Below, one piece after another: positions 1 through 55,699 of a DNA stretch of 64,000 nt. The stretch spans positions 5,364,501-5,428,500 of the forward strand of contig NC_136020.1 of NCBI RefSeq assembly GCF_048128805.1, written 5' to 3'. The notes beneath the pieces were generated by a model. It had not been told where the DNA came from and searched no databases. It saw only the letters and a program-made list of their open reading frames with translations. Position 1 is the stretch's first letter. The number at the start of each line of letters is the position of its first letter. Source of the stretch: Centroberyx gerrardi. Its lineage: Eukaryota; Chordata; Actinopteri; Beryciformes; Berycidae. The translations under genes were made by a program, and so were the position numbers.

Positions 1-2147
1 GCCAGACAAAACCAAACACGTCTGAAAAAGATCTTGCTGGGTTCCGACTGGTCTGGAGTCATGAGTCTTCAACAACCCGTTCACACCACAGAATAATCCG
101 ACTGACTGTCGGGTTGAGTCAGGGCTGGGGGGCACTCGGGCCCCGGGATGGTCCAGTCAGGATTAGAATCGGTGTGAAAAATCAGCTAGAGTGACCTAGC
201 TTTTAGTAAGCCATTAGTCAGCACTAATGTCCTCCCCTCTAACCAATGTAGCTTTATTAGAATTGGCAGAGGGCCAGAAAACATGTTGCCTGGTCCACAA
301 TAACAATCTTCTGGAACGACAGATGTTGCATAATTCATGGGAATACCATGTAGGAATGTGATCGGAAACACAATCAAAGCAGGAAAACCTTCACCTCCCA
401 TGAGCAAAGATGGGAAGTTGTGTGCCAAAACGAAAGTCCTTTTTTAAAATAAGAAAACCCCAGAAAAAAATTTGAGCAAGACAGGACAGGCGCAAAAGTG
501 TGCCTGGGAGCCCATATCCATGCAGCTCAAGCAAAAATGTTGCAAATGCTGATTGACAGCACACACATACATGCAGTCACTCAAAAGACGTTCTCCCAAA
601 TTAGCTCCCTGAATGCCAGAAATAGAAGCAGACACAAGGTGCAAGATGCCCATGTCTTCAAGGCGTGTATGAGGCAATCGTTATTTCATTATCTGCTTAT
701 ACTGAGTAATGACCAGGTTAGAGTCCTTCCTGTGTGACTTTTTGAACAGTTTAGTTGTCAGTGCAACAACTGCAGTGCAGCTTATCATGGATCCAGCATG
801 CAGAATGTGCTGAGCAAGTTGGACCCGATTTGATTGTAGTGAGATGCAGACAACAACAAGCTGGGAGTGAGCACGCACATGCAGAAATTAAACGTGTCAG
901 CCAAGCTCACTCATACTTGGCCAGCAAATACAGAAAAAGCCACAGATACATGGCTGGTATGGGTTTAAAAAGGTATCTGTACAAAACCACATAAGCTAAT
1001 AAATGTGCACCAAGTTACTTGCCTGAAACAAGAAATACAAAGAAGAAAACCTGTACCTGTAACGGCACAGTTTGAGCAAAGATGAGAAGAAAATCTGTAC
1101 TTGTAAACGTACAGTTTTCTGTTCTCTCTTGGGTGGACTGAACGTGACGCCAAACTCCACTCAAAAACCTGATTATTAAATGTTGCCTGGATCGCAAAGG
1201 TGCATACCGCATAAAATATGACTTAAGACATTTTCTGAATCATTAGGGAGCCGCTGTTCAATTCGGCACACACCCAGTACACAAAGCTGCACCTATTTCA
1301 AAAAAAAATCTACTTTTAACACTGGTTCGAATGTTATTCCCACAATCTCCTTCCACCAAAATACACCGTGGTGGGCGGTAGCGAGAGCAGGAATCGAGTA
1401 TAAAAGTTGAGATTTTATTAAAATAAAGTGCTGCTTGTTGCATCATCTATATGCCAAAATTATCAGAAGACTGTTGCTTCATGTAAGGTCTTAAGTTATG
1501 TGCTACCAGGTATGTACCTTTGTCAAGAAGAAAGGCAACATTAAACTGCCAGAATTTTAAATGAATGTCGCGTTTCCATCTATCCATACAATAGAGAACG
1601 GCACGAATTGGAGATAGCCAAGTTATGCATATTCACCTGGGAACATTTAGCAAAAAGACAAAGCTATATGCTTCACTGTAGCAGTTAATTTAGCTAAGCT
1701 AACTTAGCTAGCTACAGTTGCCCAGGCCCTGGCTGAAATCCCCTGAGCCCGGGTAAAATGCAAATTCTCCGTCTGGAAGAGACACATTGGCCTTGATACA
1801 AAGAAAAATGAGCATAACTAATAAATATGTGCCGTTGGAGGCTATCTTGCCAACTTAGGACAGATAGCCACCAGCTGATGATGTAGCCAAATGTAGAGCT
1901 AACAGCACTGTAACCCTAGCATGTTATGTTTTGATCCATTCATTCACCGAGTGAGCTAGCTTATAATACAGGCAATTTGCAGCCCCTTTTCTGACTGCGC
2001 ACTTCATGTGTATTTATGCTTAGCAATGTAGATGCAGTGCTAAAGTATGGCTTGGTCTGGAATACCCATATATACCCATCAGTGACTTATTTCCCCCACG
2101 AAGTAGCAGGGCCCATTCCAGTCCTCCCACCTCTCCCATTTTCTTAC
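1..2147 (-). other. tnpo3: Intron 1 of tnpo3 (left-truncated)
   Basis: There is no coding exon here. At about 1,350-1,560 lies a copy of a dispersed repeat also found at 2,690-2,850 and 54,880-55,100. Short open frames in this stretch have no recognisable family content. Confidence 0.6.
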
Positions 2148-2267
2148 CGATCTCTGCAGCTCCCCAAGCCACACCGAGGCTCGCTCTTTGCCGGCGGGGT
2201 CCGGGTCGTGATACAGAGCCTGAACAGCCTGGTAAACAAGTGCCAGTGTGGGTTTGCCCCCTTCCAT
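2148..2267 (-). CDS. tnpo3: Transportin-3, first coding exon (partial gene)
   Basis: Transportin-3 is an importin-beta family nuclear import receptor that carries SR splicing factors into the nucleus. This 40-residue exon starts [20 protein letters not shown], continues [11 protein letters not shown] and WLGELQRS, and is nearly identical to the human TNPO3 N-terminus, the start of the first HEAT repeat. The exon ends after the TCG codon at a clear donor (GTAAGAA on the minus strand). The next exon is not found between position 1 and 2,147, so intron 1 fills the left end and the rest of the gene lies outside. In humans TNPO3 also sits near the short-wave opsin and calumenin, which supports the call. 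Reading through the donor gives an artificial longer frame that should be ignored. Confidence 0.93.
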
Positions 2268-2560
2268 AGCGCAGGTTAGATTTATGAATGTAAACGATAA
2301 GGTGATAATATGCTACCGACAGTAACGTTAGATGTATTTGAGCCGGATAGATTTCTAGTCGGTCCTTATGTCGACCGCCATCTCGCACAGGTTTCCCGCG
2401 TGCAACTACGATTCTGTTCCGTGAAGAAACATAAGCAGGAACCTAGCCCTGAAACGTTCCGCTCTGTCGTATGGAGAGAATGTCACACCCACCCAACTTC
2501 ATCCAGTCAAACATCCAGTTAAACGTCATCAAGTTTAATTTTGCCGTACTTAGGGCAACG
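2268..2560 (-). promoter_or_regulatory. tnpo3: tnpo3 5' UTR and promoter side
   Basis: This is the sequence just upstream of the tnpo3 start codon. It is moderately CpG-rich around 2,340-2,480 compared with the AT-rich flanks, as expected for a housekeeping promoter. I see no TATA box and cannot place the transcription start. The call is by position. Confidence 0.4.
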
Positions 2561-2689
2561 ACACAGACCTGGTAGAACGCTATTTGAATCCTTAATGAAT
2601 TCTTGGGGTTTTGCTAAAGTCGGCTATATAGACATTTCAATAAACAGCACTTTATTTCAATGAAATCTCATCTGTTAGAATTGATTCCC

Positions 2690-3340
2690 CCTGCTCGTTA
2701 CTGCCATCCTCGGTGTATTTTGATTGAATAATATCGTGGGAAATCGAGGCGAACCAAATATAACAGTTGATAATTTATTTAAGTAAGTGCTGCTTTGTGT
2801 TGGGTATATGCCGAATTGAAGAATGGCTCCCAACTATCCGTAAAAGGTCTTAAAGGGTAACTTCGGCATTTTTCAACCTGGACCCTATTTTCCCAACTTG
2901 TTGTGTCTAAGTAACTAATGGGGACAACAATTTTTGAAATTGGTCCAGTATTGAGCAAGATCCCGTCAGCCGGTAGCCGCGAAATGAGCTGCAATGTAAT
3001 CCGATGGGGCAAATGTGAACCGTCAATGTACGTCCACTAAAAGTGCTTGTTTTTGCCACTGACAGGCTCAGATTGTTATTATAAGTGTCTGACAACATTA
3101 TGGAAAGGACCCTACAGAGAAATTAAAAGTTTTTCTTTACCTTTCGCTTGATCCGGTCAAGCGAAATCTGAAGCGATCTCACTCAATACTGGACCAATTT
3201 CAAAAATTGTTGTCCCCTTTAGTCACTTAGACACAAAAAGATGGGGAAATAGGGTCCAGGTTGAAAAATACTGAAGTTACCCTTTAAGTCATGTTCCGCC
3301 CGGTATTTGCGTTTACGTTTTACACAAGGCAACATGAAAC
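2690..3340 (+). repeat. Dispersed repeat copy split by a TTAA MITE
   Basis: The flanks (2,690-2,849 and 3,288-3,340) belong to a dispersed family with other copies at about 1,350-1,560 and 54,880-55,100. All three share the run AAGTG(T/C)TGCTT, then a TATGCC motif, then GTAAAAGGTCT or a close variant. In this copy the family is interrupted at a TTAA by the MITE listed next. The family is not named here; it is probably an old non-autonomous transposon. Confidence 0.55.
2850..3287. mobile_element. Foldback MITE with TTAA target duplication
   Basis: The element has two long inverted arms, about 2,854-2,962 and 3,173-3,283, that are close reverse complements. Both ends read AGGGTAACTTC inward. 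The element is flanked on both sides by TTAA (2,850-2,853 and 3,284-3,287). TTAA duplication is typical of piggyBac and Kolobok superfamily elements. The interior (about 210 bp) holds no transposase, so this is a non-autonomous element. The superfamily is inference; the inverted arms and TTAA are read directly. Confidence 0.8.
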
Positions 3341-3751
3341 TGAAAGACTTTTGAATAGACTTTGGCGTGACGTTCTGCTAAAATGAACTTAAATGGGGGG
3401 AATGGGTTAGAAAAAGGATAAACAACAAACAGATACAGTATATTGCACTAAAATATTTTGTAGTTTTTATTGTAAAGAAAGATGTTACAATGTATCATTG
3501 GCAAAAATACACATAGTCTTTGTATTGTGTATCAATTTACCACTAGATGTCAGCAAAGTACATACTACGAACTGGAGCAAGAGTTTTGTCACAAAGGTTG
3601 CACATAAAGACACCATGACAATTTAATAATCCCAGTGGGGAAATTGGGTCATGTTATTATATTATAGGCTTATTATGTTTATATTATAGATGTACCTGTT
3701 TTTGAATACATTCTCTCTTACTTGGAGAGAATGTGATAGACTACGCAGAAG

Positions 3752-3835
3752 CAGTGGTTCTCAAAGTGGGGTGGGGAGACCACCAGGGGTCCCTGAGTGG
3801 GCTCCAGGGGCTCCCCCCAGCAAAATGACTTACAG
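3752..3835 (+). mobile_element. hAT-like repeat fragment (GTGGTTCTCAAA end)
   Basis: It begins AGCAGTGGTTCTCAAAGTGG and runs into a GGGGTC/CCAGGGGTCC-rich segment. This is the usual terminal sequence of a widespread vertebrate hAT (Charlie-like) repeat. No other end was found, so it is a fragment. A related piece in the opposite orientation is at 53,590-53,665. Confidence 0.5.
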
Positions 3836-3867
3836 TTAAATTTCATTACTACTTCACTCCCCACAAG

Positions 3868-4999: not shown

Positions 5000-6650
5000 T
5001 CTGTGCAGTCATATCTGTGGTGGCATGGTAGTGTTCAGGCTGCAGATCACTTCCAGACTCAGGTCGTATCATACCCATGCATCTGACACTCAACAGCTTG
5101 GTTATGATACAAGCCCGGGTCTGGCAGTGACTTCTCCCTCCTCTCTTGGCCTTTGTCGTCTCCTTTTTGTCTCAAACGTCATCTGCTTTCTTCTTATTTC
5201 TCAGACGATCCGGGTGAATAAGTGCATGTCGCTGTGCGGAAACAGGAAAAAATTGTTCACGTTGCCATAAAACCAATGCACAAATGCAGCAATGAAAGCC
5301 ATTTTTACAATACATTCAAGTGATGTAGTGTCAATGGAGTGCAGTCTGCAAATTTGAGATAGATAAACGTGAAAATGACAAAAATGATAATAATAATAAA
5401 AGTTTGGCTTTAGAATTTAACGTTTAAACAAGACAAATATAAGTGAAGTAATACTAAACACTAGAAATGAAAACAAAAAAACATACCTTTGTATTTTGTC
5501 ATATTTTCTGTATTTCTAGGAGATTTTCTCTGGCACTTTCCTCTGCACTTGTCCTGCAAAGGAAAAGAGAAAGGCATGAAGAGAAGATGAAGAGTTTCTG
5601 AATGAGGAAGAACAGGAGTGGAGGTGTTTTTAAAAAAAAAAGAGCAGGGGGGGCAAAGAAGGGGAGGAGGCGATTTACTTGTTATCCCTCTCTTTATCCC
5701 TCTCCTTATCCTTCCCCAGATTAGCTGTTCTTCACTTATCTGAGTTTAGACTGTAGTTTGCGCAGTCTTTTGGCTCTAATCCCATGTTATAGCACTGTTT
5801 TGGCTGGGATTTGGAGGATTGACCAGGTAAATCTTATATATCCAGATTAGAGCTCATCCCAGTGGTGGGGGTATTCTTAAGATTCCAGTTTGCTCTAGCA
5901 GGGTGGATGGTTATGGGCCTGCTTGGCATGACAGTTTGTAGGTTAGAGGGTTTCACATGGAAGCTCAAAAGAAAGGCCACAGGGAACAAATGCAGGATAT
6001 TTAAGTGGCTGCCACCTGCTATCCTTATTATGAAGCCTTTGAAATGAGGCCAACTTCTATATAGTTTATAGCTGTGGTGCTTTCATTCAGTCATTCAGTT
6101 CAAAAAGCACATAAAAAACTGTAATTTGTTGAAGTGGAAACAGTCACATTACAGTATCTAAGTCTAAATATGATACACATTTTTAATGGTAGAGTGTATT
6201 ACTTCATATTTAGCCTTCAAAAGAAACCCTTTTTCACAAAATGAATGGTTGTTCAAAAATCTGTGATGGTATTATTGGTTGGAATTTGTATGTATGCCTG
6301 AACCGCTGAAAATACATTATTTTCCGGTAAGTAAAAGTAATGGGATTTTGATATAAAAGTGCAAGAAAATGTAAATTTTGAATTTGGTATTTCATGTTAA
6401 ATAGGTGTACGTTATGATATGGAGAAGTCATGTTTCACTTCATTGTAACTTTATATTCATCTTGTAAAATAACCCCAGAGCATGAATCGACAAAAACTAA
6501 TCTAAGACTTCTTCCTGCAGGCAGCCAGCTGGCCTGCTGCTGAACTGTATTGTTCCTCCTAGTTAGAATGAAATACTAGAAGGAACATTTTCATTTCTTT
6601 ATGAGAATTAACATTTTTTGTTCCATGTCTCTAAAGCCATGTCTCTCTCC
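5000..6650. other. No gene recognised
   Basis: AT-rich intergenic DNA. The open frames here (for example 5,862-6,047) show no family features, no splice context and no counterpart of SWS1 exon 1. Confidence 0.5.
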
Positions 6651-6659
6651 CTCTCCCAG

Positions 6660-8648
6660 TTGGTCCTTGGTTGTCCTTGGCTTTGAAAGATATGCAGATA
6701 ATGCAGCCATCTGTAACACTTTTGAATATTCAAATGTCGGAATGATCTGGTTGAAGGATAACATTCACACTCATAGAAAGTCAGAGGAATGGCACGTGTC
6801 ACACCGCCTGTCAACAGGTACCAAGACACTTCATTTAAATATTTCACAGGAATAACAATTTTATCCTGTCTCAAAGCCTGTCTCAATGCAGCACACACAC
6901 ATACATATACACACACACACACATGCTGGAATAGGCTCCAGCCCCCCACGACCCTGAAAACAGATAAGCAGGTAGAGAAAATGAATGAGTCAATCAATTA
7001 TTTTATTTATCTCAAAAAGTGATTTTAAACACTCATGTAAGTCAATAACTTTCACAGTTACCAATCTCTCATTAGGTTCCAGCATAGAGATATGGCTCAA
7101 CATTCAGGACAGATGTCATTTACATAACCTCTGTATTGCGAGAGCTTTGTATCGCACAGAGTGATCTATGTATAAACTGATTTTGCTCTTTGCAAGATGT
7201 TAAAATGCGACTGAAAATACTTACTTTAAAATGAATGAGACAAGTGAGACATGAGATGCAAAATTGGATTTTGTGATTAAATTTCATCATTATCTTTTTA
7301 CTTGTTTCTTCGTAAGGGTTCAGTTGTACAATGCGATCCTAATTGTTTTGGAGCTATAATAGTCCCAATAAACAAGCATTAAATCTCTCTATTGTATCAT
7401 TTATATTGATTAACAATATAAATGCCACCCAGTATGATTTATATATGGTGTCTATACACTACTACACCAGACTCATACACTCTATCTGTATTTTTTCAGG
7501 TTTTTCAGATTGTATTGTATTTGATTCCATTAGATATCAGTGATTGCTCTTGAATTTCTATCTTTTTCTATGACCAGATAAAAGCCCCAGCTTGCATACA
7601 TGTGTTCTACAAATAAATCTGCAATCTACAACATTATTTTTGAATAAAGCTTTTATTTAGCCATTTAGCCAATTAGCTTTTATTTGTGTCTGTCTCAGTA
7701 TGTTATTCTGTAGGACACTAGCCAACCACACACAGACACTAAGTGGTAAATTGATTGATTGGTATAACCAGATTGGTTAATTACTTGTTAAACAACAGTT
7801 TGTGAAAGGTATAGGGAGAATCGTTGCCTCTAGTCTGCTTTTTCTTATCCTATATGTTCAGAACTCAATATGTTTCCTTTATATTTTGTCTTTGCTGCTC
7901 ATGTACAAATATTCAATTTTTATGTGACAGATTGTTGGAACCTACATAAGACTCTTTTAGCCATCTATTAGAGCCACCAGTTCAACCAAGGCAGCTCAAC
8001 ACAGGAAATTAGTCAGCTATTTGGGTAGGACAAGTGTGGATTCATCACTGCAGAGCACAATGTTGTTCTCTCTCCACTCTTTTTCTCAACTGCAAAAACT
8101 ACTACTCTTTTGCTCTTACTATGCTATCACTCTCTCCACCTATACATATAACCCAAATGATCACACTTTCAAGCTAAGTAGATATAACCATACACCCACT
8201 TGTGATTGAATTTCATAGATTTTGACTGAGAACTGATCATTTCGCCACCAATACAACCAATCAATTTTGTTTGTTAGCTGCTAACCATAGTATCTGGTTA
8301 GCTATCATTGTCGACATAAACACATCTGAAATGTGCCCTAGCTAATGTATCTAGTTGTGGCAAGTAATTGCATGTTAACTAACATTTTGCTAGCGCTAGC
8401 TAACGCTTTGCTAAATTAGCTTGTTGGCCATATAGCTAGCTAACAGCCAAAAAACAACTGTTGGTTCAGATTAACTGACCTGACTCTTCTCAAGGTACAA
8501 CCCGCATTCCATTGTGGTTCTAATATTCAGTGTATTGAATGCACACATTAATGCTCTGACTGGTTTTCCCCTCTTCAGTTCATCATGGAGACGATGTTTG
8601 GGAAGAAGAGATGAGGCCTCTGAAGTTTTCTCCAAGACTAAGACCTCT
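6660..8648 (+). pseudogene. SWS1 opsin pseudogene (exon 2, part of exon 3, exon 5 remnants)
   Basis: Three remnants in the right order and orientation match the intact UV opsin about 5 kb downstream. Exon 2 remnant: 6,660-6,817, preceded by an AG and ended by a GT, encoding SWSLVVLGFERY where the intact gene has [12 protein letters not shown]. It is about 158 bp against 169 bp, with lost bases at its start and small indels. A weaker exon 3 remnant lies at about 8,021-8,145. Exon 5 remnant: 8,579-8,648, preceded by CTCTTCAG, with a 9-bp deletion near its start and a stop codon after FIMETMFGKKR. Exons 1 and 4 were not found. Because introns separate the pieces, this is a decayed tandem duplicate, not a retrocopy. 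It cannot make an opsin. Confidence 0.8.
6895..7000 (+). repeat. AC microsatellite and degenerate repeat tail
   Basis: An interrupted AC run (6,893-6,922) is followed by GCTGGAATAGGCTCCAGCCC and a decayed AAATGAATGAG tail. This is the common fish repeat ending of GGCTCCAGCCCCC...AAATGGATGGA type. It lies inside what would be intron 2 of the SWS1 pseudogene. Confidence 0.6.
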
Positions 8649-8649
8649 A

Positions 8650-10640
8650 TATATAGCTACAATATATTTTAAGGGAAGTACATTTGATAGCCATTCCATT
8701 AATTGAAACAAGTCCCAATGAATAATTACCAATTATGAAACGTAAGATAACAGTGACTGTGGTTATGGGAACACGCCCTGCCAAGACCTTACAGTGACCT
8801 CGCTACAGTGACAAGAAACACACTAATTAAACTAATTGGCTATGATTCAGCCTAATCCATTTCAATTACCACCGCTGCTGTTAGCTAACTCCACCTATCA
8901 CTGGGCCTTGACAGCACATCCTTATAGTAAATGGATTATATGCGAGAAGTTAAAACGTTGCTTTTGAAATGCAGCAAGACATCCTTGATCCAAGGAGGTT
9001 TTATGCATTTCAGTGTATATTACGTTTCCGTATCATATTGTTGAACTATAATACACTTGGACTGAAGTAGCCCTTGCTTTTCAGTGGCTAGATGTTACAT
9101 AAAGTTGAAGATAAGAAAAGTACACTCACTTTTGAAGTATACTGACACCTTTTTTTAAATCCATTTTACATCATACAAACAACAAATGGATGAACAGAGA
9201 AGATATATCTAAATTTTCTCTCCACAATCACAGACTGTTCAAATGTGTCCATATGAAATATGATTCCTGAACTTAAAATTTTCAGTGTTTCCATGGTCAG
9301 TCAATTTAAAAGCTGTAATTGATATGATAAGAGTGCAGATATTACAATGCAAAAGATAGATTTTACCATTACAGTTCATATCCTGGATACAGTTTTTTGT
9401 ACTGCTGCAAAGTTGCCCTAACAAGTCTTTGAAAAAGAAAATTTGTAATGTCTCAAATTTCATGACTGATTTCATGAATGATTTGAATATGGCTCAAAAA
9501 AAAAGTCTCACTTTGTTAGATTGTAATGTTAGATCATCAATTAACTCAAAAGAAAGGAAATCTGATGTAACCAATGAGTCGGAGAATACTAACTAGACTC
9601 CACTGACTGCATCCCAGTGTAATTGGAGTTTGTAATTAATGACTTAATTGCTTGATTGATTTGGTTAAATGAGAGTTTACAGGGTTAATTTAATTGACAA
9701 ACCTTGTATTTGACTCTGCCATGTCATTCCCTGCCAATTGTTCTGCTCTCAGGCAGGGTTAAGGAGCTAAGCCGCTTCAAGATAATGAAAATTGGATTGC
9801 ACAGTGATAATTGAGTGACCAGCTCAAGATGTCGCATGTCATCCCCCCTCCCTCTCCCTCTTCCTTCCTGTTCTCTTCACTGTTAAACTGTCAAATACAG
9901 GCAAAAAAGGTAGGTAGCATTGTACTTCACTTCAAATTCCTAAAACTACCTTGACATGACCTGTATATTATTGACACGTAGTGTGTACTGTGCTAATATC
10001 TTGGAGGCACTGTACATATTCAAATAACTCATCAATCATCAACATCACAACTTCAGTTGTAACCCACTTACCAAACACATTAAATACATAAAAATCCTCA
10101 GAATTCAGTATCTCCTATCTTCTGCAGTCAATTCAATATAGGTAATGTGCCTTTAATGGCAATTTGCTTTATAGAACTTTTAGAAGTTTGGAATGCTATT
10201 TCCAAATGCCACAAAAGATTGTTCTCTCAGTGAGGATGTTAAAAGACACAGAACACATGACACATTAATTTTCCACAGTAGGCTACAAAGATTCTACCTT
10301 CAATACAAAGGCTAATTTTTCCAAATTCCAAATTCTAAAGAAAACTTTCAATAGTCTTTTTAGTACACAAGAGACCAATTTAATAACCACTCTTTAAAAA
10401 TATAAGAGCAACAGTTCATGTATAAGGGATATGATTTGGATTTTTTTTGCTCTGATTAAGAAAAATACTGAAAACTAGTTTGAGCATCTATTTATTTAAT
10501 TTTACAAAATGAAACCACCACCCTCTCCAATTTTTAATAGACCAAAACAGATCCCACTTCTGCTCTCCTCAGTGAGGTGCTATCCTATGATTTAATGTAC
10601 TGTATGTATTTGCGATATGATCTTTATACATTTCATTTAA
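8650..10640. other. Intergenic DNA upstream of the UV opsin; homeodomain-site-rich block at 9,590-9,850
   Basis: No coding exon is visible. At 8,820-8,880 and 9,600-9,850 there are dense TAATTA, TTAATT, ATTGATT and GATAATT motifs around a non-repetitive stretch. Photoreceptor and other homeodomain factors bind such motifs, so this could be an enhancer, but the AT-rich background makes chance matches likely. Confidence 0.35.
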
Positions 10641-10644
10641 TTGT

Positions 10645-10960
10645 TCAGTTATGTTTTTTGTAACTTAATTCTTCATGTAAAGGCAGTATTGCATCCCAGA
10701 GTTTCCTTACCATGGAATAGGTGCTGTGAAGAAAACAGCTGCTAACCCAAAAGAGTTTAGTATTGGTTTCAATGGAGAGATTTAGTGTCCCATAGTCTAA
10801 ATACTGTTTAAGAGTTTTTACCACCCTAAAAGAATAAACACTGAAGTCTTTTGCATGAAATATGTTCAATATGTTTAAATTGAAACAAAATATTGTCTAT
10901 CAGTGACTTAAATCTAAAAATACTGGTATTGGTATCTTCAAAACCCCATATAAGTTGAAC
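10645..10960 (-). repeat. Dispersed repeat, family with CTCTCCATTGAAAC core
   Basis: On the minus strand it carries the core GGGACACTAAATCTCTCCAT, plus a TACTGGTATTGGTAT...TCAAAACCCCATAT segment on the plus side. The same family recurs at 15,225-15,365, 26,995-27,070, 30,425-30,540, 32,580-32,750, 35,215-35,510, 37,660-37,910, 39,930-40,150 and 63,386-63,510. Confidence 0.6.
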
Positions 10961-11214
10961 CATCGTATATATAAATCTATACATATATAATGATGTGTAT
11001 TACAGTATGTGATATTAACCCATGTAAAAGTGGATCCTGCATATATTCTAAGTCCCTTTCTTTCCAATCCTTCCCTGATTCTTACTGCCAGCTCTAAATG
11101 GGATTATACTGTTGTGCGGACGACACCCGTAGACGGAAGGCGAATGTGACGACAGCAACTTAAGCCCAAAATTTGTCCCAGCAATACGATCAGGAGATCT
11201 TCAAGGGAAGCTTG

Positions 11215-11310
11215 CCCCATCTGTAATCTTCAGCTTAAGTGGTTTATGACTGTTTAAAAAGGGGCAACATGAGGGAGCCGCATAGATAGCCGCATAGCCA
11301 AGGAGCCAAG
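11215..11310 (+). promoter_or_regulatory. opn1sw1: opn1sw1 core promoter and 5' UTR
   Basis: A TATA-like TTTAAAAA is at 11,253-11,260, about 50 bases before the start codon. A TAATC (11,224-11,228), the core of the CRX/OTX photoreceptor site, lies about 25 bases upstream of it. The arrangement fits a photoreceptor gene promoter. No transcript evidence is available. Confidence 0.5.
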
Positions 11311-13345
11311 ATGGGGAAGCACTTCCACCTGTACGAGAACATCTCCAAAGTGGATCCCTTCGAGGGGCCACAGTACTACCTGGCTCCGCTTTGGGCCTTC
11401 TACCTGCAGGCTGCCTTCATGGGTTTTGTCTTTTTTGCTGGGGTACCCTTGAATTGTATTGTTCTTTTCGTGACAGTGAAATACAAGAAGCTGAGGATGC
11501 CACTGAACTACATCCTGGTCAACATTTCGTTCGCAGGCTTAATTTTTGTCACTTTTTCTGTGAGTCAAGTATTCCTCGCCTCCCTGAAGGGATACTACTT
11601 CTTGGGCCATACCATGTGTGCCTTAGAATCTTGCATGGGATCTATAGCAGGTATAAAAACTGATCTACGGCAATGATAGTTATATCATCTGAGAGAAATG
11701 TAGGATCTATTCAATTCAACTATGATGAAAAGCTTGTTTCTACTGTGTTCCATTTCTTTATTCACCTCATCCTCTACTCTTCAGGGTTGGTGACGTCTTG
11801 GTCCTTGGCTGTCCTTTCATTCGAGAGATACTTGGTCATCTGTAAACCCTTTGGCGCCTTCAAATTTGGAACCAATCATGCTCTAGGTGCTGTTGCCTTC
11901 ACCTGGTTCATGGGGATTGGGTGTGCCACCCCACCATTCTTCGGTTGGAGCAGGTAACTGACGCACCCTTTTTCCAAGATCATGTGAATATGGGTACAAA
12001 TGTTCTGTGTTAGGGTGATAAGAGCGATCTTAACAACATTCTGCTTGCTTTGCAGGTACATTCCTGAGGGTCTAGGCTGCTCCTGTGGACCTGACTGGTA
12101 CACCCACAATGAGGAGTTCAACTGTTCCAGCTACACCTACTTCCTCATGGTGACCTGCTTTATCTCACCACTCACCATCATCATCTTCTCCTATTCCCAG
12201 CTACTGGGGGCGCTGCGTGCTGTGAGTCTAACTGCTTGTACACACTGCAAGCAACTTGGTTGATGGGTCACTCTGGGCAGTATGTGGGCAATTGTGTCTA
12301 TTTAGTGGACTCATCAAATCATAACATTTTCTATGATTTGGTATTGCCTTTCATAGTGCTACATCTTGTTGATGAGTTAACAAAACTAGCTAGCAAGCGA
12401 CAATAATTAAGTATCATTAATGAAAATAAACACAAGAAACTCAGTTACTTCAGAGCTTACCATCGACCCCAACCATGGATGCAATTCCTGTCATCTTTCA
12501 TTACAAGTTGTAGAGAACTGGGAAGCTGTGAATGGCTGTAATCAACTTCCATTTTGCACTTGTCATTTGGAACTATTGTTCATGAAACAAAATCACATCT
12601 TTAAGGAAACAAGGAAGCGTGGAAATCTGATTGGCAGTTGACAGCCGATGACCATGGAAAGTTCAGCAGTGGCCAGTTTTTCTCAGCTGACAAACTTGTT
12701 CACGGTCCACACATTTGCTGAATTTCCACATTTTGAAGTCACTCAGCTCTACAGGAAACTAATGGACTTCTGGTGACTTGTGTTGCTTGCGGTGTGAATG
12801 GACATTAAGCATTGTGCGACCAGAAAAAGGCAGACGGTCGTTAAAATCATTTACCTGTCACGGTTTGATTGATTCCATTGATTTCCTTGACACATGGTGT
12901 TTGCATTTGTTCAGGTTGCAGCCCAGCAGACTGAGTCAGTCTCCACCCAGAAGGCAGAGAAGGAGGTGTCCAGGATGATCATTGTGATGGTGGGCTCCTT
13001 CATCACATGCTATGGGCCCTACGCCCTCGCAGCCATGTACTTCGCTCACTCAGCAGATGAGAGCAAAGACTATCGCCTGGTCACCATTCCAGCATTTTTC
13101 TCCAAGAGCTCCTGTGTTTACAACCCACTCATCTACGCCTTCATGAACAAACAGGTGAGTAGACAGAGGCAGAACGACAGAAACAATCCTACACTGATTC
13201 CTGTCTGTGAAGTTACAGTATGTCGATGTGGTTGTTTCCTCAGTTCAATGCCTGCATCATGGAGACAGTCTTTGGCAAGAAAATGGATGAATCTTCTGAG
13301 GTTTCTTCCAAGACTGAGACCTCCTCAGTCTCTGTAGCTTCTTAG
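11311..13345 (+). CDS. opn1sw1: UV-sensitive cone opsin SWS1
   Basis: SWS1 is the ultraviolet cone pigment, a retinal-binding GPCR in photoreceptor outer segments that activates cone transducin. Coding exons: 11311-11650, 11785-11953, 12056-12221, 12915-13154 and 13244-13345. All introns are GT-AG and the phases fit, giving 338 residues. The start [14 protein letters not shown] and [20 protein letters not shown] are typical of fish SWS1. Key residues are present: counterion E113 in CALES, the ERY motif after SWSLAVLSF, retinal lysine K296 in FFSKSS, NPLIY in TM7, and a Ser/Thr tail with a [11 protein letters not shown] end for kinase phosphorylation. F46, F49, F86, S90 and S118 (bovine numbering) predict UV rather than violet tuning. 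V52, S114 and M116 are less usual. A decayed duplicate lies upstream, and calumenin is tail to tail downstream. Confidence 0.98.
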
Positions 13346-13690
13346 TTTTTGGGATACAAGAGGATAAAGAGGATCGAAGATGGAAGACACTTTCCACCAT
13401 CTTCGAAATGGGACTTTTCCAAAATCTGACCGCAGGTTTGGAGGTATGCTGCATTTTCCCTTGTAGGCAGAGAATAAATGCTTATAACTGGAAAGTGAAA
13501 ATGTGAGATACTAAGCTCATAACAACAGTAGCCAATAAGTTCAATTCTCATGACTTCCACCCTTAGATCACATGGGAATGCAATGTATAAATGCAACAAA
13601 TGGTTCAGCTTCTGATGCTGACATGTATTATACTGTAGTACATCTTTGTATAGATAAAGGCAACAAAAAATCAAATAAAAATATTTTGAA
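13346..13690 (+). other. opn1sw1: opn1sw1 3' UTR with polyadenylation signal
   Basis: The first AATAAA after the stop is at 13,674-13,679. A second AATAAA lies near 13,813-13,818 and could serve as an alternative site. The convergent calumenin 3' UTR ends close by. Confidence 0.6.
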
Positions 13691-14885: not shown

Positions 14886-17011
14886 CTAGAACTCGTCATG
14901 CCGTATTAGCGCCTCCCCAAAGTCGGTTGCTTGGCTTCCGACAAACAGGTCATACTTGTCCACGATTTCATCCTTGGTAAGCTTCCCATCCTGTAGAAAC
15001 AAGGACATGCAAAACAGTTGTTAAATAGGCAAACATTTTCAGAGAGAGAGCACAACAGAGAGCAAAAGAAAAGCACTGAGATTAGGGTTAGGACCAATAG
15101 TTTGACGCCATGGCCTTTTATTAAAAATTGGGTATCAGCCAGTCAGTGACCTCTGATGTGATAGATCCAATGCAATTTGTTTGATTACATATTTATTATA
15201 TATTAGTATATATTAATATTGGTAGTATTATCCTGAATTTCAATGGAGAGTTTTAGTGTCCCATGATGGTCTAAAAGTTTCATAGACATTTCCAGCCTGC
15301 CAAGAATACAGTTTTGGGGGAAACACTGAATACTTTTTTTGATTTTTAAACAACTTTTCGAGATAACACACCTTATCGGAGTCGGACTCGAAGACCAGGT
15401 GTTTGGCTTCTGCCTCTGAATGGTCATAGTCATTGGGCAGTATCCAGTCCAGCGTCTCCTCCTTGTCCATCTTGCCGTCTTTGTTCTTATCCCTGAACTC
15501 GGTGAACTGCTGACGCTCTGTTGCCACCCACTCTGGCTCTGGCATGTCATCATTATGGTTGTACATGTCGCCTACGAAAGAGTTATGGAAAGGGATGAGA
15601 AAACTGCTATATTGACAAAGGAGAAACATGTCTAATTATTCAACTGGTACGTTTAAAGTAATAATCCACCACATTTTCAACCAAAACATCACAATTATTT
15701 ACCAATGTACTCATCAAGGTCAATGAGGCCATCGCCGTTCTTGTCGATGTCTTCTATTGTTTCCTGTGCGGGTAAGCAGACAGGTATAGGTGTCATGAAA
15801 CTAGTTTCTGATCCTGGTTGCGTTTCTTGGAATCACTTGATTTTAGAATAGAATACATACCTGCACCACTACGTGCTTCATGTGGTCGTAGTTCTCAGGG
15901 TGCAGGAAGGCGGTGAACTCTTCTCTGTCTGCCTTCAGGTCACCGTTCTTGTCTGCTGCTTTGAAGCGCCTCTCATCTCTCGCCATCATCTTCTTATGGT
16001 CGTACTCGCTATCTGGTTCATCTATTGGGTCAAGGGGGAATGGATGGGATCAAAACACACAAATGTGGCCTTATACAAACGTTAGAAAGCGACACTTGTC
16101 GGAACCAATGGCTTCTAAGTTCCTTGCCCTTCCCTCCTTACCCTGGTAGGTACCATAGGTGACGTTGTTGTACTCCTCCAAGGAGATCAGGCCGTCATTG
16201 TTCACGTCGAAGTCCTTCCACTGGTTGTCTACGTTGTCATAGACGTACCTGTTCTGAGCGTTCTTGATCCAGGTCTTCAGCTCCTCCTCAGTGACGAAAC
16301 CATCCTTGTTATCGTCTATCTTATCTACAATGAAGCTGGAGAGAAAAAGAAAGGTTTGTCCAAAGTGTCCAATGGAACATCAGTACCAATTCTACTAGTT
16401 TGAATGGCATCGTTCTCACCTGGCCAAACAAACTAAACGAGGAAACGCTCTAGAGTTCAAATAAACCGCTCCGAACATGCTTGGACTTAAACTTGCACAA
16501 CCAGTTTATGATCATTCTGCAGCAGAATCCAGTAAGCAGAAGTACATTTCCAGTTTGTCTGCCTCGTCATTGATTAAACATATTTACAGGAAGATATCTA
16601 CTGCCTGCTTCCTGGTGTGTCAATCTCTAAAATCTGCCAAACATCACACAGGCGGTTTGCATTTGACGCTACAATATCACCCTCTCTTCGCTTTCTCTTC
16701 AAAGTCATTATGGATGATGGCAGCAAGAAAAGGTTCAATCATCCATCGGGACTTAAGGACGCTTATAAATAGCTGAATCGTAAATCCACTCACCCCAGTC
16801 TGTGCTTGCTCTCTTCTGGTGTGAGATCATCAAAGCTCTTGGCCTCTCCGTGGCCCAGAAAGGCCTCGTGGTCGTAGTCGTAGTTCTTGTCATCGTCGTG
16901 CTCGAGGTGGCTGAGAGGTTCTTCGTGGTGAATGCGGCTCTTCTTCTCCATGGGTTTACTGGTGGCGTAGACGACGCAGAGGACGAAACACATGAGCAGT
17001 GGCCTGATCAT
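14886..17011 (-). CDS. calua: Calumenin
   Basis: Calumenin is a CREC-family, low-affinity calcium-binding protein of the ER and secretory pathway. Coding exons in transcription order: 17011-16794, 16335-16142, 16021-15861, 15763-15703, 15571-15372 and 14990-14886. They sum to 939 bases, 312 residues; human calumenin is 315. The N-terminus [18 protein letters not shown] is a signal peptide. Six EF-hand regions follow, with loops such as [67 protein letters not shown] and [14 protein letters not shown]. The last residues HDEF are the ER-retention signal. The splice acceptor lies one base before the ATG, so the 5' UTR is on a separate exon ending at 17,927. The third-exon sequence resembles the isoform with TYGTY rather than the alternative exon. 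Whether this is the a or b fish copy is inferred from linkage to SWS1. Confidence 0.97.
15225..15365 (-). repeat. Dispersed repeat (CTCTCCATTGAAAC family) in a calumenin intron
   Basis: It is another copy of the family described at 10,645, lying directly beside the donor of the 200-bp calumenin exon (15,372-15,571). The minus strand reads CCATCATGGGACACTAAAAC. Confidence 0.6.
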
Positions 17012-23556: not shown

Positions 23557-26500
23557 ATGCCTGCTGAACGCAAGCGGTCAGTAAACATGGATGAGAAAGA
23601 AGTGTGCTCATTCAGTAATAAAGAAAAAGAGAAGGATAGAGATGGTGACAGAAGACCAGCATCCTCTCGAGATAAAGCAAAAGATGAGGCCAAAATGAGT
23701 GGTAAAAAAGATAGTGGCAAGGCTGCAGAGGAGAAGAGAAAGCGCCTAGAGGAGGAAAAGAGGAAGAAAGAAGAAAAAGAGCGAAAAAAGAAAGAGGAGG
23801 AGAAACAGAAAGCAGAGGAGGAACAGAGGAAGAAAGAGGAGGAGGAGAAGAGACAGCAGGAGGAGCAGGAGAGGAAGCTCCAAGAGGAGGAGGCCAAAAG
23901 ACAACGTGAAGAGGAGGCGGCTCAGCAGAAGTAAGTGATGGTGAACATTGTATTGTTACACTCTTCCTTGTAAGGCCCCTTTTCACTGTTGTGATTAAAA
24001 AGTACTGGATTGTGTGCTCTCCATCATTTAAGAACATTGTAGCTTTGAACCAGGCAGTCCTTGGCATAGCAGGACCCTGGCCAGTAGGAACAAGGCATTA
24101 CAATTTTTAGGCAGAAATCTTTGTTTTGTTTCATGTTAATCTTTTTTGGTACACCTGATATGGATGGTAGGGAATTTTGACACAGAAATGAACGGCTTTA
24201 TGTTTTAACAGTACATAGAGCTCAGGAAGTTTTAATGTTCAGAAAGGTCCCTAAAATCAAAGGATGCATTAGCAAACATCATCTTTCTGCTTCTGTTGAC
24301 TTAACCTCACCATCCATTGTCCCTTACCTTCGATTCATCCTTATTTCCCCAGGGAAAAGGAGGAGAGCCATCAGCTGCACCAGGAGGCCTGGGAGCGCCA
24401 CCAGTGCAGGAAGGAGCTCCGCAGCAAGAACCAGAACGCCCATGAGGGTCGGCCCGAAGAGGCCTTCTTCAGCCGCCTGGACTCCAGCCTTAAGAAGAAC
24501 ACCGCCTTTGTCAAGAAGCTGCGGACACTCACTGAGCAGCAGCGAGACTCCCTCTCCAATGACTTTGCTTCGCTCAACCTCAGCAAGTACATCGGCGAGG
24601 CTGTGAGCTCCGTCGTGGAGGCCAAGCTGAAGATCTCAGACGTTGGCTGCGCCGTCCACCTGTGCTCCCTCTTCCACCAGCGCTATGCTGAGTTCGCCCC
24701 TCTGCTGTTGCAGGCATGGAAGAAACACTTTGAGGCGCGGAAGGAGGAGAAGTCGCCCAACGTGAGCAAGCTGCGCACAGACCTGCGCTTCATCGCTGAG
24801 CTCACGATCGTTGGCCTCTTCACAGACAAGGAGGGCCTCTCGCTCATCTACGAGCAGCTGAAGAACATCATCGGGACGGACCGGGAGACGCACACTCACG
24901 TGTCTGTGGTCATCAGCTTCTGTAAACACTGCGGGGATGACATCGCCGGTCTGGTGCCCCGCAAGGTGAAACTGGCTGCTGAGAAGTTTGGCTTGGTCTT
25001 CCCACCGAGCGAGATCATCAACACAGAGAAACAGCAGCCCTTCCAGAACCTTCTAAGAGAGTACTTCACATCACTCACCAAGCACCTGAAGAAGGACCAC
25101 CGAGAGCTGCAGAACATTGAGAGGCAGAACAGGTGAGCAGGGGACCAAAAGAAAATTTTATTTTTTTCCCCACAGAGCATTGCTCTCCTTGGTCGCTTTT
25201 TGTTGTTTACTAAGACCTCTTTACATTTTGTCCTCATCAGGCGTATCCTCCATTCCAAAGGGGAGCTGAGCGAGGACAGACACAAGCAGTATGAGGAGTT
25301 TGCCACCTCCTACCAGAAGCTCCTGGCCAACACTCAATCTCTGGCCGATCTGCTTGATGAAAACATGCCAGAGCTTCCTCAGGACAAGACTGTGCAGGAG
25401 GGTGTGTGATGATTCTTTTCTGGTCCTGTTTAAACTTAAAGATGCAACATGTAGGGTTTTCTCATTAATATGTATCTGCAGAATAACAATGGATCACAAA
25501 CAGTAGCTCCATTGAGGTCTGAGCTCTCAAGCAGCTTGGAGGGGAAAGATACAGTTAGAAAACAGCAGGGCAATAGAATGTAGCATCAGTGATAATTTCC
25601 ACAATTTCACATTGGCATAAAATCTTATATGTGTTACCGTTATAATTATGATAACACAATTCTTGTCGTGAAGATTTTAATTGTGATGCTTTAGGTCTTT
25701 CCAGTGTTTTTGTGTGTAATATTTTGTCTTCCTTCTGCCCACAGAGCATGGCCCTGGCATTGACATTTTCACCCCCGGTAAGCCCGGAGAGTATGACCTC
25801 GAGGGGGGCATCTGGGAGGACGAGGATGCTCGTAACTTCTATGAGAACATGGTGGACCTGAAGGCCTTTGTCCCTGCCATCCTCTTCAAGGACAATGAGA
25901 AGAGCAACCAGGGCAAAGACAAAGATGATGCCAAAGGTACAGTATGTTTAGTAAAATCACAGACAGAGGGCGAACACACACACACACACACACAGATTTC
26001 TTCTGACTGTGTTACTGTTGCTCTCTTCTTCAGATGCCAGAGAGGGGAAGGATGGGGCCAGCACCACAGAAGAACTGGAGCTGGAGTTGGAGGCTCTGGA
26101 CATTGCTGACGACCCTCTTGAACTGGAAGGCCCAGATGAGGCAGAGAATGAAGAGCTGGCCAAGAAACTGCTGGACGAGCAAGGTAAAGATGAAGGTATT
26201 CCCTTAATGCCACCTGACAAACCAGCCCCCTCCTACATTTAACGCTTACTATTTAGCTTGATAGCCAGAATAGTATTAGAACCCCTTTCAATATATGTGA
26301 GATTCTGACAATACGATAAACTCTTCAGCTCTAATTTGTATTACATGCTGCTTGTCTTTTTTTTTTTAACAATGCATTGTACTTTTGTGCAACTGTGAAT
26401 CTCAAATCTTTTTATTGTCCTGTTAGGTTTTTTTTTGTTTTTTTTGGCAGTTTTTAGTTTATTTTAAGTGGATTTAACACCTACCTTCATGATTATTTTG

Positions 26501-46722: not shown

Positions 46723-49700
46723 TTAGTAAGTGTCTTTCAGCAGCCCCAGTTTCCTCAGCGCTTCCCTGCGTGACTCATCCGTCGCTCCCCGTCCGGAAAA
46801 CTGCACGGTGATGCCCTGGGAACGGAACGAGGCCGGTTTGGAGATGGACCTCCGCCTGGATTCGGGGGAAGGGGGTCGGCCCACTACTTTCTGGGGGCTG
46901 AAAGAGCTTTGGTGGGGGTGGTGGCGGGCGGGTCTGGGGGCCGGGGTCGGGGCTGGAGCTTTGGAAGTCCTCGCCGGGCTGAAGGAAGGGGGATTGGAGC
47001 TGGTGGAGGGTGTTATGGTTCGGGTCTTGCCTCCGTAACTGTTGAGCTCGTAGGGTAGTGTTTCCGGTTTGGTGGGGGATGGCAACGTTCTGCTCTTGTC
47101 AATGTGAGAGCTGAGGATGTCGGGGAGGTCGCTCCTGGTCATGGGCACAGAGGCAGTGGCCATGACTTTGGTCTTTCCTCCGAAGCTGTTGAAGTCACTG
47201 GGGTTAGCCAATGCGGACGGGAGGGTTTTGCTATCATGGCCGCCTGTAGAAACCGCAGGCTCGCTTTTGGAGGAAGCAGAAGGGTTGACCACGATGGTTT
47301 TCCCTCCATAGCTGTTGAAGTCCAAAGAGGCAACCTCGGGTGGAGGGGCTGGCAAGACTGGCGGCTTGCTTTCAGAGGGAGGTGGGGGGTAGCTGCTTTG
47401 TGTGACTGTTGCAGGAGGTGAGGGGTTCATCTGAGGGGTTTTATCTCCAGAGTTGGTCAGCACCGTCTCTGGTTTTCTGTCAGCATGACTTTGGCTCTGG
47501 ATTGGGCTGGGAATATTGGCCACAGGAGGTTCGGTGCTGGTTTCTGTATCTGTGGTAAGAGGTGGGATGGTACTGTTAGGGGTGATAAGGACAGACATAC
47601 CCCCGGACATGGCACGGTTCCTGGTCAGGCCCAGCTTAGACAGCGCCTCCTGCCTGGATTTGTCTGGCGTGGGATCCCTGAAGGAAACGCTACGTGTGGG
47701 AACGTTTCGAGACTTTTGTGGCGAGACCTGCTGAGGGTCTTCCAGCTCCAGAGGGTGCGATGTCCCTGTTAGGTTAGCCAGCATCTGCGCCCGCCTCTCC
47801 TGGATGTTCACGTTAGCCAGCGACTGGTTGTGGTGCTCTTTGCTGCCGAGCATCACGCTGATGTTAGCAGGGAAGCGGGTGGGCTTGACGGAGGTAGGAG
47901 GGCCCTGTTTGGCTGAATGGTCGGAGCTGTAGCTTGGCGGCTTATCAGACTCCAGGCTCGAATGGCGGAGAAGAGAGGAGGGATGGAAACTGGAGGTTCC
48001 ACTCGCCTGGTTCTCAGCTATCTTCTGGGCAATCAGGACCGGGGTGGGGATGCAGCCTGGGGGGTGGTAGGAAAAGTGGCTATCTGCAGGTCCATAGCTA
48101 CCGCTAGGTAGGGGAGGGTTGTACTCCAAAGGCAAGCCGTCCATCGGATCACGCCTTGGCTTCATCTCAAAGTGGCTGTCAGGATTCACCGCCATAGTCT
48201 GGAAATCTAGGAGGGACACATTTCAAAGATTAATGCTTCAATTCTTAGTCCTCTCCTTTCAACTGACATGAATTACAAATATCATCTAGTTAGAGCTGCA
48301 CTAGGCAACTTTGCACGTTGGTGGCTCCAGATGGCAGCGAGAACTTCAATACCCAGAAATCCTGTAACATGATGTCAGTAAACTGCACACAGCACGCTCA
48401 TGTTTGCCAACCTGGCCGGTCTGTGATGCTTTATACCAAAGAATACCAAACGTACGAGAAAGGCTGTTTAGGAGACTCTTTGTATTTCACTCCTAAGTTT
48501 CAGTTCATCACCTGTTGTAGGTGGAGAAATGTTTTTTTCTAATGGACTGTAAATAAAGGCTGTTAGGCCAAGCTGAGCAGTACACTACCTGGAATGGTGG
48601 GATGGAAAAGTGGCTCTTTGGTCTGGACAAGGTCCGGTTCTGGTTGGACCAGGTCTATAATGTCCTGGTCTTTGGGACTGGGGGGTATGTCCGGGAAGGA
48701 GGACATGGGCCCAGGGCTGAAGCTCGGTGCAGAGGGCAAGGTGGGGGGTCCGTCTACCTCCTCGATGGGACTGCTGCTCAACGGGGGCTTCGCCGGCCCT
48801 TGCTTTTGCTCGTCCTCCTCCAAGCTCTCCTCCAGGGAGACGATGGTCTCCTCGAAGAACAGGATGCACTCCTGCTCCTCCTGGCTCAGGAACTGCAGCG
48901 TCTCGTCTTCCTGTCAGGGGCCATACAAAGCAAGAGTCCTGCTTATTACTGGAGCCTGGACTGTATACCTTGTCACATCAATACCAATCTTTTGGCGTTG
49001 CATTCCACTCTGTGTGGTAGAAGCATCACCATCATAGCCACGACTTTGTTATTGAACATCATTACTTGAGTCTTACCCTTGTGAAATGATGCAAAGCAGT
49101 GCCTTTCCATTCATGGTGGCACTGAAAACCCTGTGTCAAGCCATTGAACTGGCTTTCTCATACAGTAGGTGTGTGTGTGTGTGAGTGTGTGTGTGCGTAC
49201 AGAGAGAACACAGGGCTGTTTGTTCCTGCATCCCAACCTTCCAAACTTCTTTCCCACCCTATATTTAGCTCAAACGCCCCTCTCTTCTATGGGAGGGGTC
49301 TAAACCTTGACAGCCCCTCCCTCCCTCCTTCCCTCTCTCCATCCCTGCTTCTTGCCTTCATGGCTACCTGTCCTGCTTCACACAGGGCAGCCCCTGTACA
49401 CGACACAATGGGGTGTCCAATAACAGCCGCTGCCTGCCTCGATGGCTGGGCTGCTGGGTGACTATTGATTTTTCCGCTGCACCCTGAGGTCTTTTTCAGT
49501 CCAGACGAAGGTCAAGTCCACCTATTTAAACCAAACCACATGGCTTTAGGGAGTAGGTATTATCCCCAACAGCCAAACATGATGCACTTAGAGGTAAGTA
49601 GAGTGCACATTAGTAGACACAGTGACAATACAATGTACAACAACACATTGTTTTGATCACATATCGTGTATTACTACAATTATATTGCCACTGGCCAAGC

Positions 49701-52248
49701 TGAAGGTGCTTATTTGTGCTATTTTAAGATTATGACATTCAGTTTGTGGTTGACATGGTAAACAGGGTTACCATGGCGGCAGGCGGATGTCTGATGCTGA
49801 CATGAACGTTGTGCGAAGAGCCAACCGGTGGCACGGCGAGGTGAACGCGAGGCTTGTTTTGCTTTACACATAGACACAAAGACACCTGTGGCAACACCCA
49901 ACTGAAACCAATACGAGATAAAACTGATATGCTGGTTTCAGCAAGAATGAATGATGTCTATTGTCGTAATGGAGCCAAGACCCAGAAAACTGCAGCTTAA
50001 CCGGTTCGGCTGTGTTGTGTGTTGATAAATGCGTGTCATCCCCAAGGCATGCAAAGGGATTAAGTTGTTAAGCGAGTGTAATTTCTGCGTGTCCGCGAGG
50101 ACCGGTTGCGTTGTATAAACACAACGCACTGCTCAGTCAAGGGTGAATCACAGAACAATAAGCATCAGCTCTTAACTTGATAACCAACACATTGAGGCTT
50201 ATCGTTAGTAATAGACAGCTGAAAATAAATGCTTTGAAATGAAATAAAGGCGTGTGGAGTTTTTGGCAAGGTGTTACTAGTCGAATTCACCGTGAAAAAG
50301 ATTTTCCACACACTTAGAGCTTAGAATTATATGGGTTCTATCTGACTTTTTTCTTAATCAAAATTGAATTATCCACGTATTCATGATCTTTGAATGTTAC
50401 TTAATGCCTTTTGGGGTTAAATATTTAAAAAGATAGAAAGTACAGAACAGTTTTCCCAGCTGGATTGTGAAATCTTTGATGCTCAACATTGCAGAATGGC
50501 ACTTCACCCAGATAGAAGGTTATAATTCCAAGCTCATGATTTATCATGTATCCACGGTCTGATAAAGCTCCTGCAGACTTAAAGCTTGGCTCAGTAAATG
50601 TAAATTACATGAATCTAAGTGTGCAGAGGATCCTTTTCGCCCTGTGAGATGAAATAAAGGTACAAGAAGACTTAATACCGACCCAAAGTCAATTACTGAT
50701 TAACCATAATGGTTTCCTAATACTCACGCTTGGCCTGGAGTTTCTCCTGGCCGCTCCGTTGACACCGAAGTGGAGCGGAGGATTGGCCTGCAGATGGACG
50801 TCCATGGTAACCGGGTCAGAGGTCAGCTGGCCTTTGGACATCTCATGGAGGGCTTCCAGTCTTCTTCTCTAGGAGAAAACCAGAAGCGTGTCCGGGCTCA
50901 CTCTGAAGAATCATCGAATCCTCTCATTTCAACCAGAGCCTGGAAAACAGAGGGAGAGAGAGAGAGAGACAACAAACAGAGTGAGAAGAGTGAAAGATAA
51001 AATATCACCGTGACAGAGAGGAAGAGAGGCTTTGATGGCCACTCTACACACTCATGTGGGTCTACTCAGCACACAAGACCAGTTCACCTTCTGCTGTTTG
51101 TTATGCAAATACAAACGGTCTACTCCAACCGACACTCAACTGACTCCTCAACCAGAAGTGCTTCAAGGTCAGCACCTGTACTTGAGGAAGCTTTCGCCTT
51201 CGCAATCACAAGAAACAGCTGAGTGCATCCACTTGGGCTGGAAGTCCTCGCTGTTTTGTTTATGTTTCTAGTAGTGTGCCAGTCTTTATTCCTGTCTCTC
51301 TGGAGGTGACAGCACAGCATCACAACAGAGGCCTGACGGACCAGTTCTCCTAGATCAGGTGGAGCTGGAAACCAGGCTCCAAAGCAGCAGCGGTGGTTTG
51401 TCAAGTGGGTGATTTAGCCAGCACATTCCTTTCTAAAGCAGTTCTGATAAGGACTAAAGCAAGATGGTGCGTTGCTGTGGTCTGGAGCCAAATAGCACAA
51501 ACTGAGATCTGAACAAAACAGGCTAAAGGCAACAGCAGACTTACAGCTGACCCTCTCAAAAAGAAAGCATACTGATCCACCCCTGGCTTTGATAAATGTG
51601 AGAGGATACAATACAATTATCACAGCAAAACTATAAACTTTATACACTAACCTATAGGAATATTACAGTGATATAGAACGTAAAACACCATTAAGTATAA
51701 GGTCACTATAAACTCATTACTGAGTACCAGAGACACACTAAAAGTATCTATAGGAAAATTATAAGGATATTATAGAGATACTATAGAAGATAAAAATGCC
51801 ATAGAGTACAATAGGGTCACTGTAAATTCACTATTGAGTATCACAGACACAGTATAAGTCTCTATATGAATATTATAGGAATATTATAGAGATACTATAG
51901 GAGATAAAAATACCATAGAGTACAATAGGGTCACTGTAAATTCACTATTGAGTACAAGAGACACACTATAATTCTCTATAGGAATATAATAGGAATATTA
52001 TAGAGATACTATAGGAGATAAAAACACTGTAAAGTACTATTGAGAACCCCAGACGCACTAATAAGTCCATATAGGAATATTATAGTGACTTTCATTAGGG
52101 GAGGTAAGTAATATTAATAGTAATATTAAGTCAGATTAATCAATGACATCAAATTGATACTTTGGGACTGCTGTAAAGAAAGATTGCCAATAACAGTGAA
52201 ATAGTCAAAGATGTTTTGACTTACCCAACATCTCCGCAGCAGCCGCAT
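46723..52248 (-). CDS. proser2: Proline and serine-rich protein 2
   Basis: PROSER2 is a poorly characterised, mostly disordered vertebrate protein. Exons in order: 52248-52225, 50868-50728, 48910-48589 and 48206-46723. They total 1,971 bases, 656 residues, longer than the human protein as I recall it (about 435). The conserved N-terminal core is RRRLEALHEMSKGQLTSDP, then EDETLQFLSQEEQECILFFE and ETIVSLEESLEEDEQKQ. The rest is Pro/Ser-rich. It carries three NS(Y/F)GGKT repeats and two copies of an R-x-EAL-x-KLGL motif, one of them at the C-terminus (REALRKLGLLKDTY). The short first exon (MRLLRRCW) is the likeliest start because its donor phase fits; the Met in HEMSKGQ is an alternative. Identity rests on sequence style and its place between upf2 and echdc3, as in humans. 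Confidence 0.88.
48290..48545. repeat. Dispersed repeat in a proser2 intron (GAGCTGCACTAGGCAACTTT type)
   Basis: It begins AGAGCTGCACTAGGCAACTT and continues GGTGGCTCCAGATGGCAGCG, a word order seen in a common fish repeat. No ends or duplications were resolved. Confidence 0.4.
51640..52095. repeat. Tandem repeat, about 114-bp unit, about 4 copies, proser2 intron 1
   Basis: The word CACTGTAAATTCACTATTGA recurs at 51,818 and 51,932, a spacing of 114 bases. ATAGAGTACAATAGGGT and GGAATATTATAGAGATACTA recur with the same period. The first and last copies are degenerate. The core CTATAGGAATATTATAG is nearly palindromic. Related single words lie at 52,700-52,790 and 55,228-55,260. Confidence 0.85.
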
Positions 52249-53589: not shown

Positions 53590-53665
53590 TTCTCGGGGAC
53601 CCTCTGGAACACGGTCAAGGACCCCTGGAGGTCCCAGGACCCCACTTTTACGGACCACTGTTGTA
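53590..53665 (-). mobile_element. hAT-like repeat fragment
   Basis: The plus strand reads AAGGACCCCTGGAGGTCCCA and ends ACGGACCACTG. It is the reverse-strand counterpart of the CAGTGGTTCTCAAAGTGGGG family seen at 3,752. Confidence 0.45.

Positions 53666-55655: not shown

Positions 55656-55699
<44 letters not shown>

Follow-up and report, generated by a model that had tools for sequence, protein, structure and literature searches.

Gene content of the SWS1 locus

The window analyzed in this study is a 64-kb stretch of the Centroberyx gerrardi genome (C24:5364501-5428500), and it contains an intact gene for an SWS1 (UV) opsin together with, upstream of it on the same strand, the probable remnant of a second SWS1 copy. 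The intact gene (11311-13345, plus strand) is composed of five exons (11311-11650, 11785-11953, 12056-12221, 12915-13154, and 13244-13345) with GT-AG introns, and its open frame encodes 338 amino acids. It begins 2.7 kb beyond the remnant, where the original prediction had placed it. In a search of solved structures, the top match of the encoded protein is human short-wave-sensitive opsin 1 (PDB accession number 8y02; E = 1.7e-142), and bovine rhodopsin (1f88) is matched with an E value of 4e-101. The protein has the residues F86, S90, E113, S114, and S118 in bovine numbering, which was taken from the alignments of this search. The marks of a functional UV opsin, i.e., an open frame, E113, the chromophore-binding lysine of the FFSK motif, and F86, are all present in the sequence of the downstream gene, which, with its open frame and F86 kept, would be the copy still in use. 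Lin et al. linked F86 and S90 to UV sensing (PMC5686071), and in damselfishes the combination of S114 with S118 is accompanied by an estimated maximum of 368-370 nm (PMC11019301), a damselfish value that is not transferred to the fish analyzed here.

A TNPO3 exon (Transportin-3, 4ol0, E = 2.5e-33) is located on the minus strand approximately 8 kb upstream of the remnant, in stretch L002. The downstream neighbor of the intact gene contains an EF-hand frame (16074-16379, minus strand; Pfam EF-hand_1, E = 7.7e-11) and is presumably a calumenin-like gene; a second frame of this neighbor (15243-15635) has no Pfam match. The remnant sits between the TNPO3 exon and this calumenin-like gene. In the teleosts compared by O'Quin et al., SWS1 appears flanked by TNPO3 and CALUA (PMC3116502), and very few changes of the SWS1 neighborhood across ray-finned fishes are described by Lin et al., along with a duplication in gar that they infer to be tandem and a separate duplication in Cyprinodontiformes (PMC5686071).

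The rest of the window holds several repeats and coding frames. Inverted repeats occupy 1122-3858 (2849-2969 versus 3168-3288, 91%; 1223-1568 versus 2511-2853, 71%), and have kin at 53557-55140; this is perhaps a fold-back element. Short dispersed repeats are located between the remnant and the intact gene (10737-10951); the repeat at 10737-10837 has relatives at 15238, 35267, and 39958, three more in stretch L002, and one in stretch L003, and the repeat at 10889-10951 has one relative, at 26989. A tandem array at 51697-52024 consists of 2.9 copies of a 114-bp unit with 89% matches. Frames of neighboring genes include a UPF2-like one (24300-25133, plus strand; 4cem, E = 4.2e-149), one with a SARG domain (46726-48222, minus strand), which we take to be PROSER2, and an enoyl-CoA hydratase one (55699-55989, plus strand).

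Remnants of exons 1, 2, and 5

The sequence of the intact gene was aligned locally with the region 5000-11200, and the scores were compared with those from 100 dinucleotide shuffles and from 60 real-DNA controls, the latter being cut from 14.2-63.8 kb as 15 pieces of 6.2 kb that overlap by half, each used in four orientations, and, as such, not independent of one another. The clearest match is to exon 5. Its remnant (8579-8658, plus strand), found by both blastn and local alignment, encodes IMETMFGKK and DEASEVFSKTKTS in two frames, and its local-alignment score of 41.5 is equaled by 0/100 shuffles and 0/60 controls. With the intact gene masked (11251-13400), a blastn search of the whole 64-kb window recovers 8581-8647 with 79.7% identity over 69 columns (E = 1.8e-10); the protein-level match is weak (tblastn, E = 0.020). 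An acceptor-like site with a pyrimidine tract and CAG (8561-8578; CAG at 8576-8578) directly precedes the piece, which begins at 8579. The 9-bp deletion and the stop that had been ascribed to this exon are both present: the 9-bp deletion follows the first codon, a 2-bp deletion then shifts the frame, and a TGA stop (8612-8614) lies downstream of this frameshift.

The exon 2 remnant (6660-6808, plus strand) includes the piece WSLVVLGFERY and is best supported in its core (6660-6742), for which blastn against the same masked window gives 67.9% identity over 84 columns (E = 0.004). The local-alignment score is 33.7 in 5000-11200, equaled by none of the 100 shuffles and none of the 60 controls, and the core by itself scores 28.7, compared with 16.4 for the top control. 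At the protein level the match is again weak (tblastn, E = 0.061). The first 13 bases of the exon are absent, and an insertion of approximately 9-11 bp, depending on the alignment, is present. Another acceptor-like site, a pyrimidine tract with CAG at 6657-6659, lies immediately ahead (6641-6659). These results bear out the exon 2 and exon 5 pieces of the original prediction as real.

Exon 1, which had been absent from the list of exons first proposed, is represented by a partial remnant (6508-6582, plus strand) that was recognized by local alignment and translation and contains the pieces FFLQAA and LNCIV. When it is aligned with the intact exon, a 20-bp gap opens, and there is a stop in the same frame as the first piece. 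The best exon 1 alignment spans 6508-6670 with a score of 36.2 (0/100 shuffles, 0/60 controls), of which only 6508-6582 is counted as exon 1, the alignment overlapping the start of exon 2; the intact exon 1 core (11397-11484) by itself scores 25.3, and the top of the 60 controls scores 20.0. In the masked window, blastn recovers just 19 bp of this remnant (E = 3.8), and exon 1 has no clear match in the region over its first 86 bases (46/200 and 139/200 shuffles under two scorings). A genome-wide DNA search with the intact exon 1 (779 Mb, 278 contigs) returned the intact gene as its sole match and bypassed the remnant, which shows that the exon 1 piece is very faint; since the search misses the fish's own remnant, it would also miss other worn copies.

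Exons 1, 2, and 5 of the remnant keep the order and the strand of the intact gene. When the region is reverse-complemented or reversed, the same queries score 15.1-19.9, compared with 33.7-41.5 on the true strand. The splice signals seen are the acceptor-like CAGs of exons 2 and 5, which keep intron positions as in an unprocessed pseudogene, and no donor site was identified beside the remnant exons. The starts of the exon 1 and exon 2 matches lie 152 bp apart in the remnant, compared with 401 bp in the intact gene, so that on this anchoring approximately 250 bp, including the end of exon 1, would have been lost; from exon 2 to exon 5, the remnant (1,770 bp) is longer than the intact gene (1,290 bp). 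The case for the remnant rests on DNA, the protein-level matches being weak. Further SWS1 pieces were sought with blastn and tblastn, and none was convincing elsewhere in the masked window; nor was any in the 20 kb upstream, where the E value was at best 0.086 with blastn and 1.5 with tblastn.

The interval between exons 2 and 5

The interval expected to hold exons 3 and 4 (6809-8578) has no significant opsin match. For exon 3 DNA in 5000-11200, the score of 14.9 is below the shuffle mean of 16.5 and is reached by 84/100 shuffles and 53/60 controls; within 6810-8580, it is reached by 191/200 and 159/200 shuffles under two scorings. The probable part of exon 3 in the original prediction is thus not sustained, and the claim that the pieces lie in order on one strand beside splice signals stands for exons 2 and 5. 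Nor did exon 4 give a significant match: its scores are reached by 7/200 and 43/200 shuffles in the whole of 6810-8580 and by 65/200 and 199/200 in 7051-8580 (two scorings in each case). A protein-level search of the interval was equaled by 70/200 shuffles for exon 3, 152/200 for exon 4, and 81/200 for both.

Two candidates in the interval were set aside. The best exon 4 candidate at the DNA level, at 6920-7049 (3/100 shuffles, 4/60 controls), is not counted because it overlaps a CA-rich stretch and a repeat-like block, the latter presumably the tail of a common fish repeat. A tblastn match to residues 204-307 lies in the expected place (7871-8188), with an E value of 0.17 in 5.2 kb, and is equaled by 81/200 shuffles.

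Collinear similarity outside the exons, which had been proposed as a means of dating the duplication, was sought in introns and flanks and was not clearly found. Introns 2-4 have no clear match to the remnant region, and intron 1 is marginal (2/200 shuffles under one scoring, 17/200 under the other). The 5' flank (7/60 and 25/60 shuffles) and the 3' flank (9/60 and 20/60), each of approximately 1 kb, have no clear match either. The lack of clear collinearity in introns and flanks is as expected for an old duplication and is not decisive against a tandem origin. Compared with the original prediction, the 5' end of the remnant is better documented and its middle less well.

Origin of the upstream copy and comparison with other fishes

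The remnant is best read as an unprocessed pseudogene that arose by duplication and formed the upstream partner in an old tandem pair of SWS1 UV-opsin genes, with a probability of approximately 0.93. This reading, which was also that of the original prediction, follows from pieces of exons 1, 2, and 5 in order on one strand, two acceptor-like sites, the intact gene beside them, and their place in the TNPO3-calumenin interval, and it is supported as fitting better than any rival considered. Similarity by chance or through low complexity is highly improbable; although the exon 1 and 2 alignments contain many gaps and the tblastn E values of exons 5 and 2 are 0.020 and 0.061, each of the three exons exceeds all shuffles and controls in the right order and on the right strand, the reversed region scores far lower, and for exon 5, with its blastn E value, chance is as good as refuted. 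A processed (retro-) pseudogene has next to no probability: exons 2 and 5 each follow an acceptor-like site and sequence that is not exonic, their pieces are 1.77 kb apart, and the remnant lies beside the intact gene on the same strand. The intron positions refute a processed origin, and no point in its favor was found.

That the remnant derives from another visual opsin class (RH2, LWS, SWS2, or RH1) is very unlikely, and the pieces differ in how they bear on this. Over five stop-free pieces (44 residues), which were selected for agreeing with the intact SWS1 and hence favor it, identity is 37/44 to the fish's own SWS1, 25/44 to bovine RH1, and 24/44 to human SWS1; with the latter two this close, only the own SWS1 separates the classes overall. 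The comparison took in these three proteins. For the exon 2 piece WSLVVLGFERY, bovine RH1 and the own SWS1 fit equally well (9/11 each), and for the exon 5 tail nearly so (9/13 versus 10/13), so that neither piece separates the classes. Against another class, the pieces of exon 1 together with the first half of exon 5 separate SWS1 from rhodopsin, agreeing with the own SWS1 at 18/20 residues, with human SWS1 at 12, and with bovine RH1 at 7, and the place of the remnant is the SWS1 locus.

The mismatches between the remnant and the intact gene number 13/88, 15/90, and 31/93 at codon positions 1, 2, and 3, respectively, and the excess at position 3 (Fisher p = 0.0011) supports common descent from a coding exon. 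Jukes-Cantor divergence is 0.44 at position 3 (31/93) and 0.18 at positions 1 and 2 (28/178), values that are understated because they were taken from the best-preserved pieces only. The excess is no proof that the upstream copy worked, since silent changes in the surviving gene alone yield such an excess. By a rough estimate, a copy dead at birth would show a ratio of position 3 divergence to that at positions 1 and 2 of approximately 1.7, and two working copies would show a far higher one; the ratio found here, approximately 2.5 from 59 mismatches, falls between these expectations. Within the tandem reading, a duplicate that was dead on arrival and never a working opsin is possible, with the odds somewhat against it: exons 3 and 4 and the 5' flank are undetectable and divergence at positions 1 and 2 is high (28/178), whereas the pieces come from both ends of the gene, which indicates that the duplicated segment spanned it, and the position 3 excess is somewhat greater than the rough dead-at-birth expectation, on small counts. 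An equally tentative reading is that the upstream copy was long a working second UV opsin, perhaps tuned unlike the surviving S114/S118 copy; its loss would then mark a change in the UV vision of the lineage, and relatives may keep both genes.

In the simplest account of the decayed tandem copy, duplication of a DNA segment including at least exons 1-5 would have left a pair of SWS1 genes in the TNPO3-calumenin interval. Once freed of constraint, the upstream copy would have acquired frameshifts and a stop and lost approximately 250 bp from the stretch that separates the matches of exon 1 and exon 2, and exons 3 and 4 may have gone through deletion and insertion or by erosion. The disabling lesions observed are the exon 5 frameshift and stop and the missing exons. 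No function of the remnant is indicated. The lineage would thus once have doubled its UV-vision gene and then lost one copy, and the remnant is useful as a marker in comparative study.

Decayed opsin copies are already well known, and a relict of clear origin formed by an ordinary mechanism is by itself unsurprising. In the open-licence literature searched, we found no description of a fragmentary SWS1 relict in tandem with, and upstream of, an intact SWS1, and no priority is claimed. SWS1 duplicates are described as rare in fishes, at 1/41, 1/56, and 12/101 species in three surveys quoted in one account (PMC11019301), and pseudogenes and truncated genes are excluded from the counts of Lin et al. 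(PMC5686071). With such copies left out of those counts, and with relicts this worn hard to see, duplication of SWS1 may have happened more often than the genes now alive suggest; the TNPO3-CALUA interval offers an easy place to seek further relicts.

Two SWS1 copies are listed for spotted gar (in tandem), damselfishes, ayu, and blackbar soldierfish (PMC5686071, PMC3826523, PMC11019301). The present case resembles these in having two copies in one lineage, those of gar being inferred as tandem by Lin et al., and differs in that one copy is reduced to three exon fragments where two genes are listed in those fishes; in addition, gar SWS1 has A86 (PMC5686071), whereas the intact gene here has F86. 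Atlantic salmon and brown trout also keep one SWS1 while a second, the pseudogene sws1-2, has decayed (PMC9309310). The lesions described there comprise a 6-bp deletion, plus a premature stop in salmon and additional indels in trout, with no whole-exon loss among them, and Lin et al. link the extra salmonid SWS1 to the genome duplication of salmonids rather than to a tandem event (PMC5686071). The remnant of a third SWS2 adjoining SWS2B in Atlantic cod (PMC4281148) is likewise a fragment of a tandem opsin copy, with intact genes of the same class next to it; unlike the relict in the present locus, that of cod is SWS2, and the SWS1 of cod is reported in the same source as missing from its locus.
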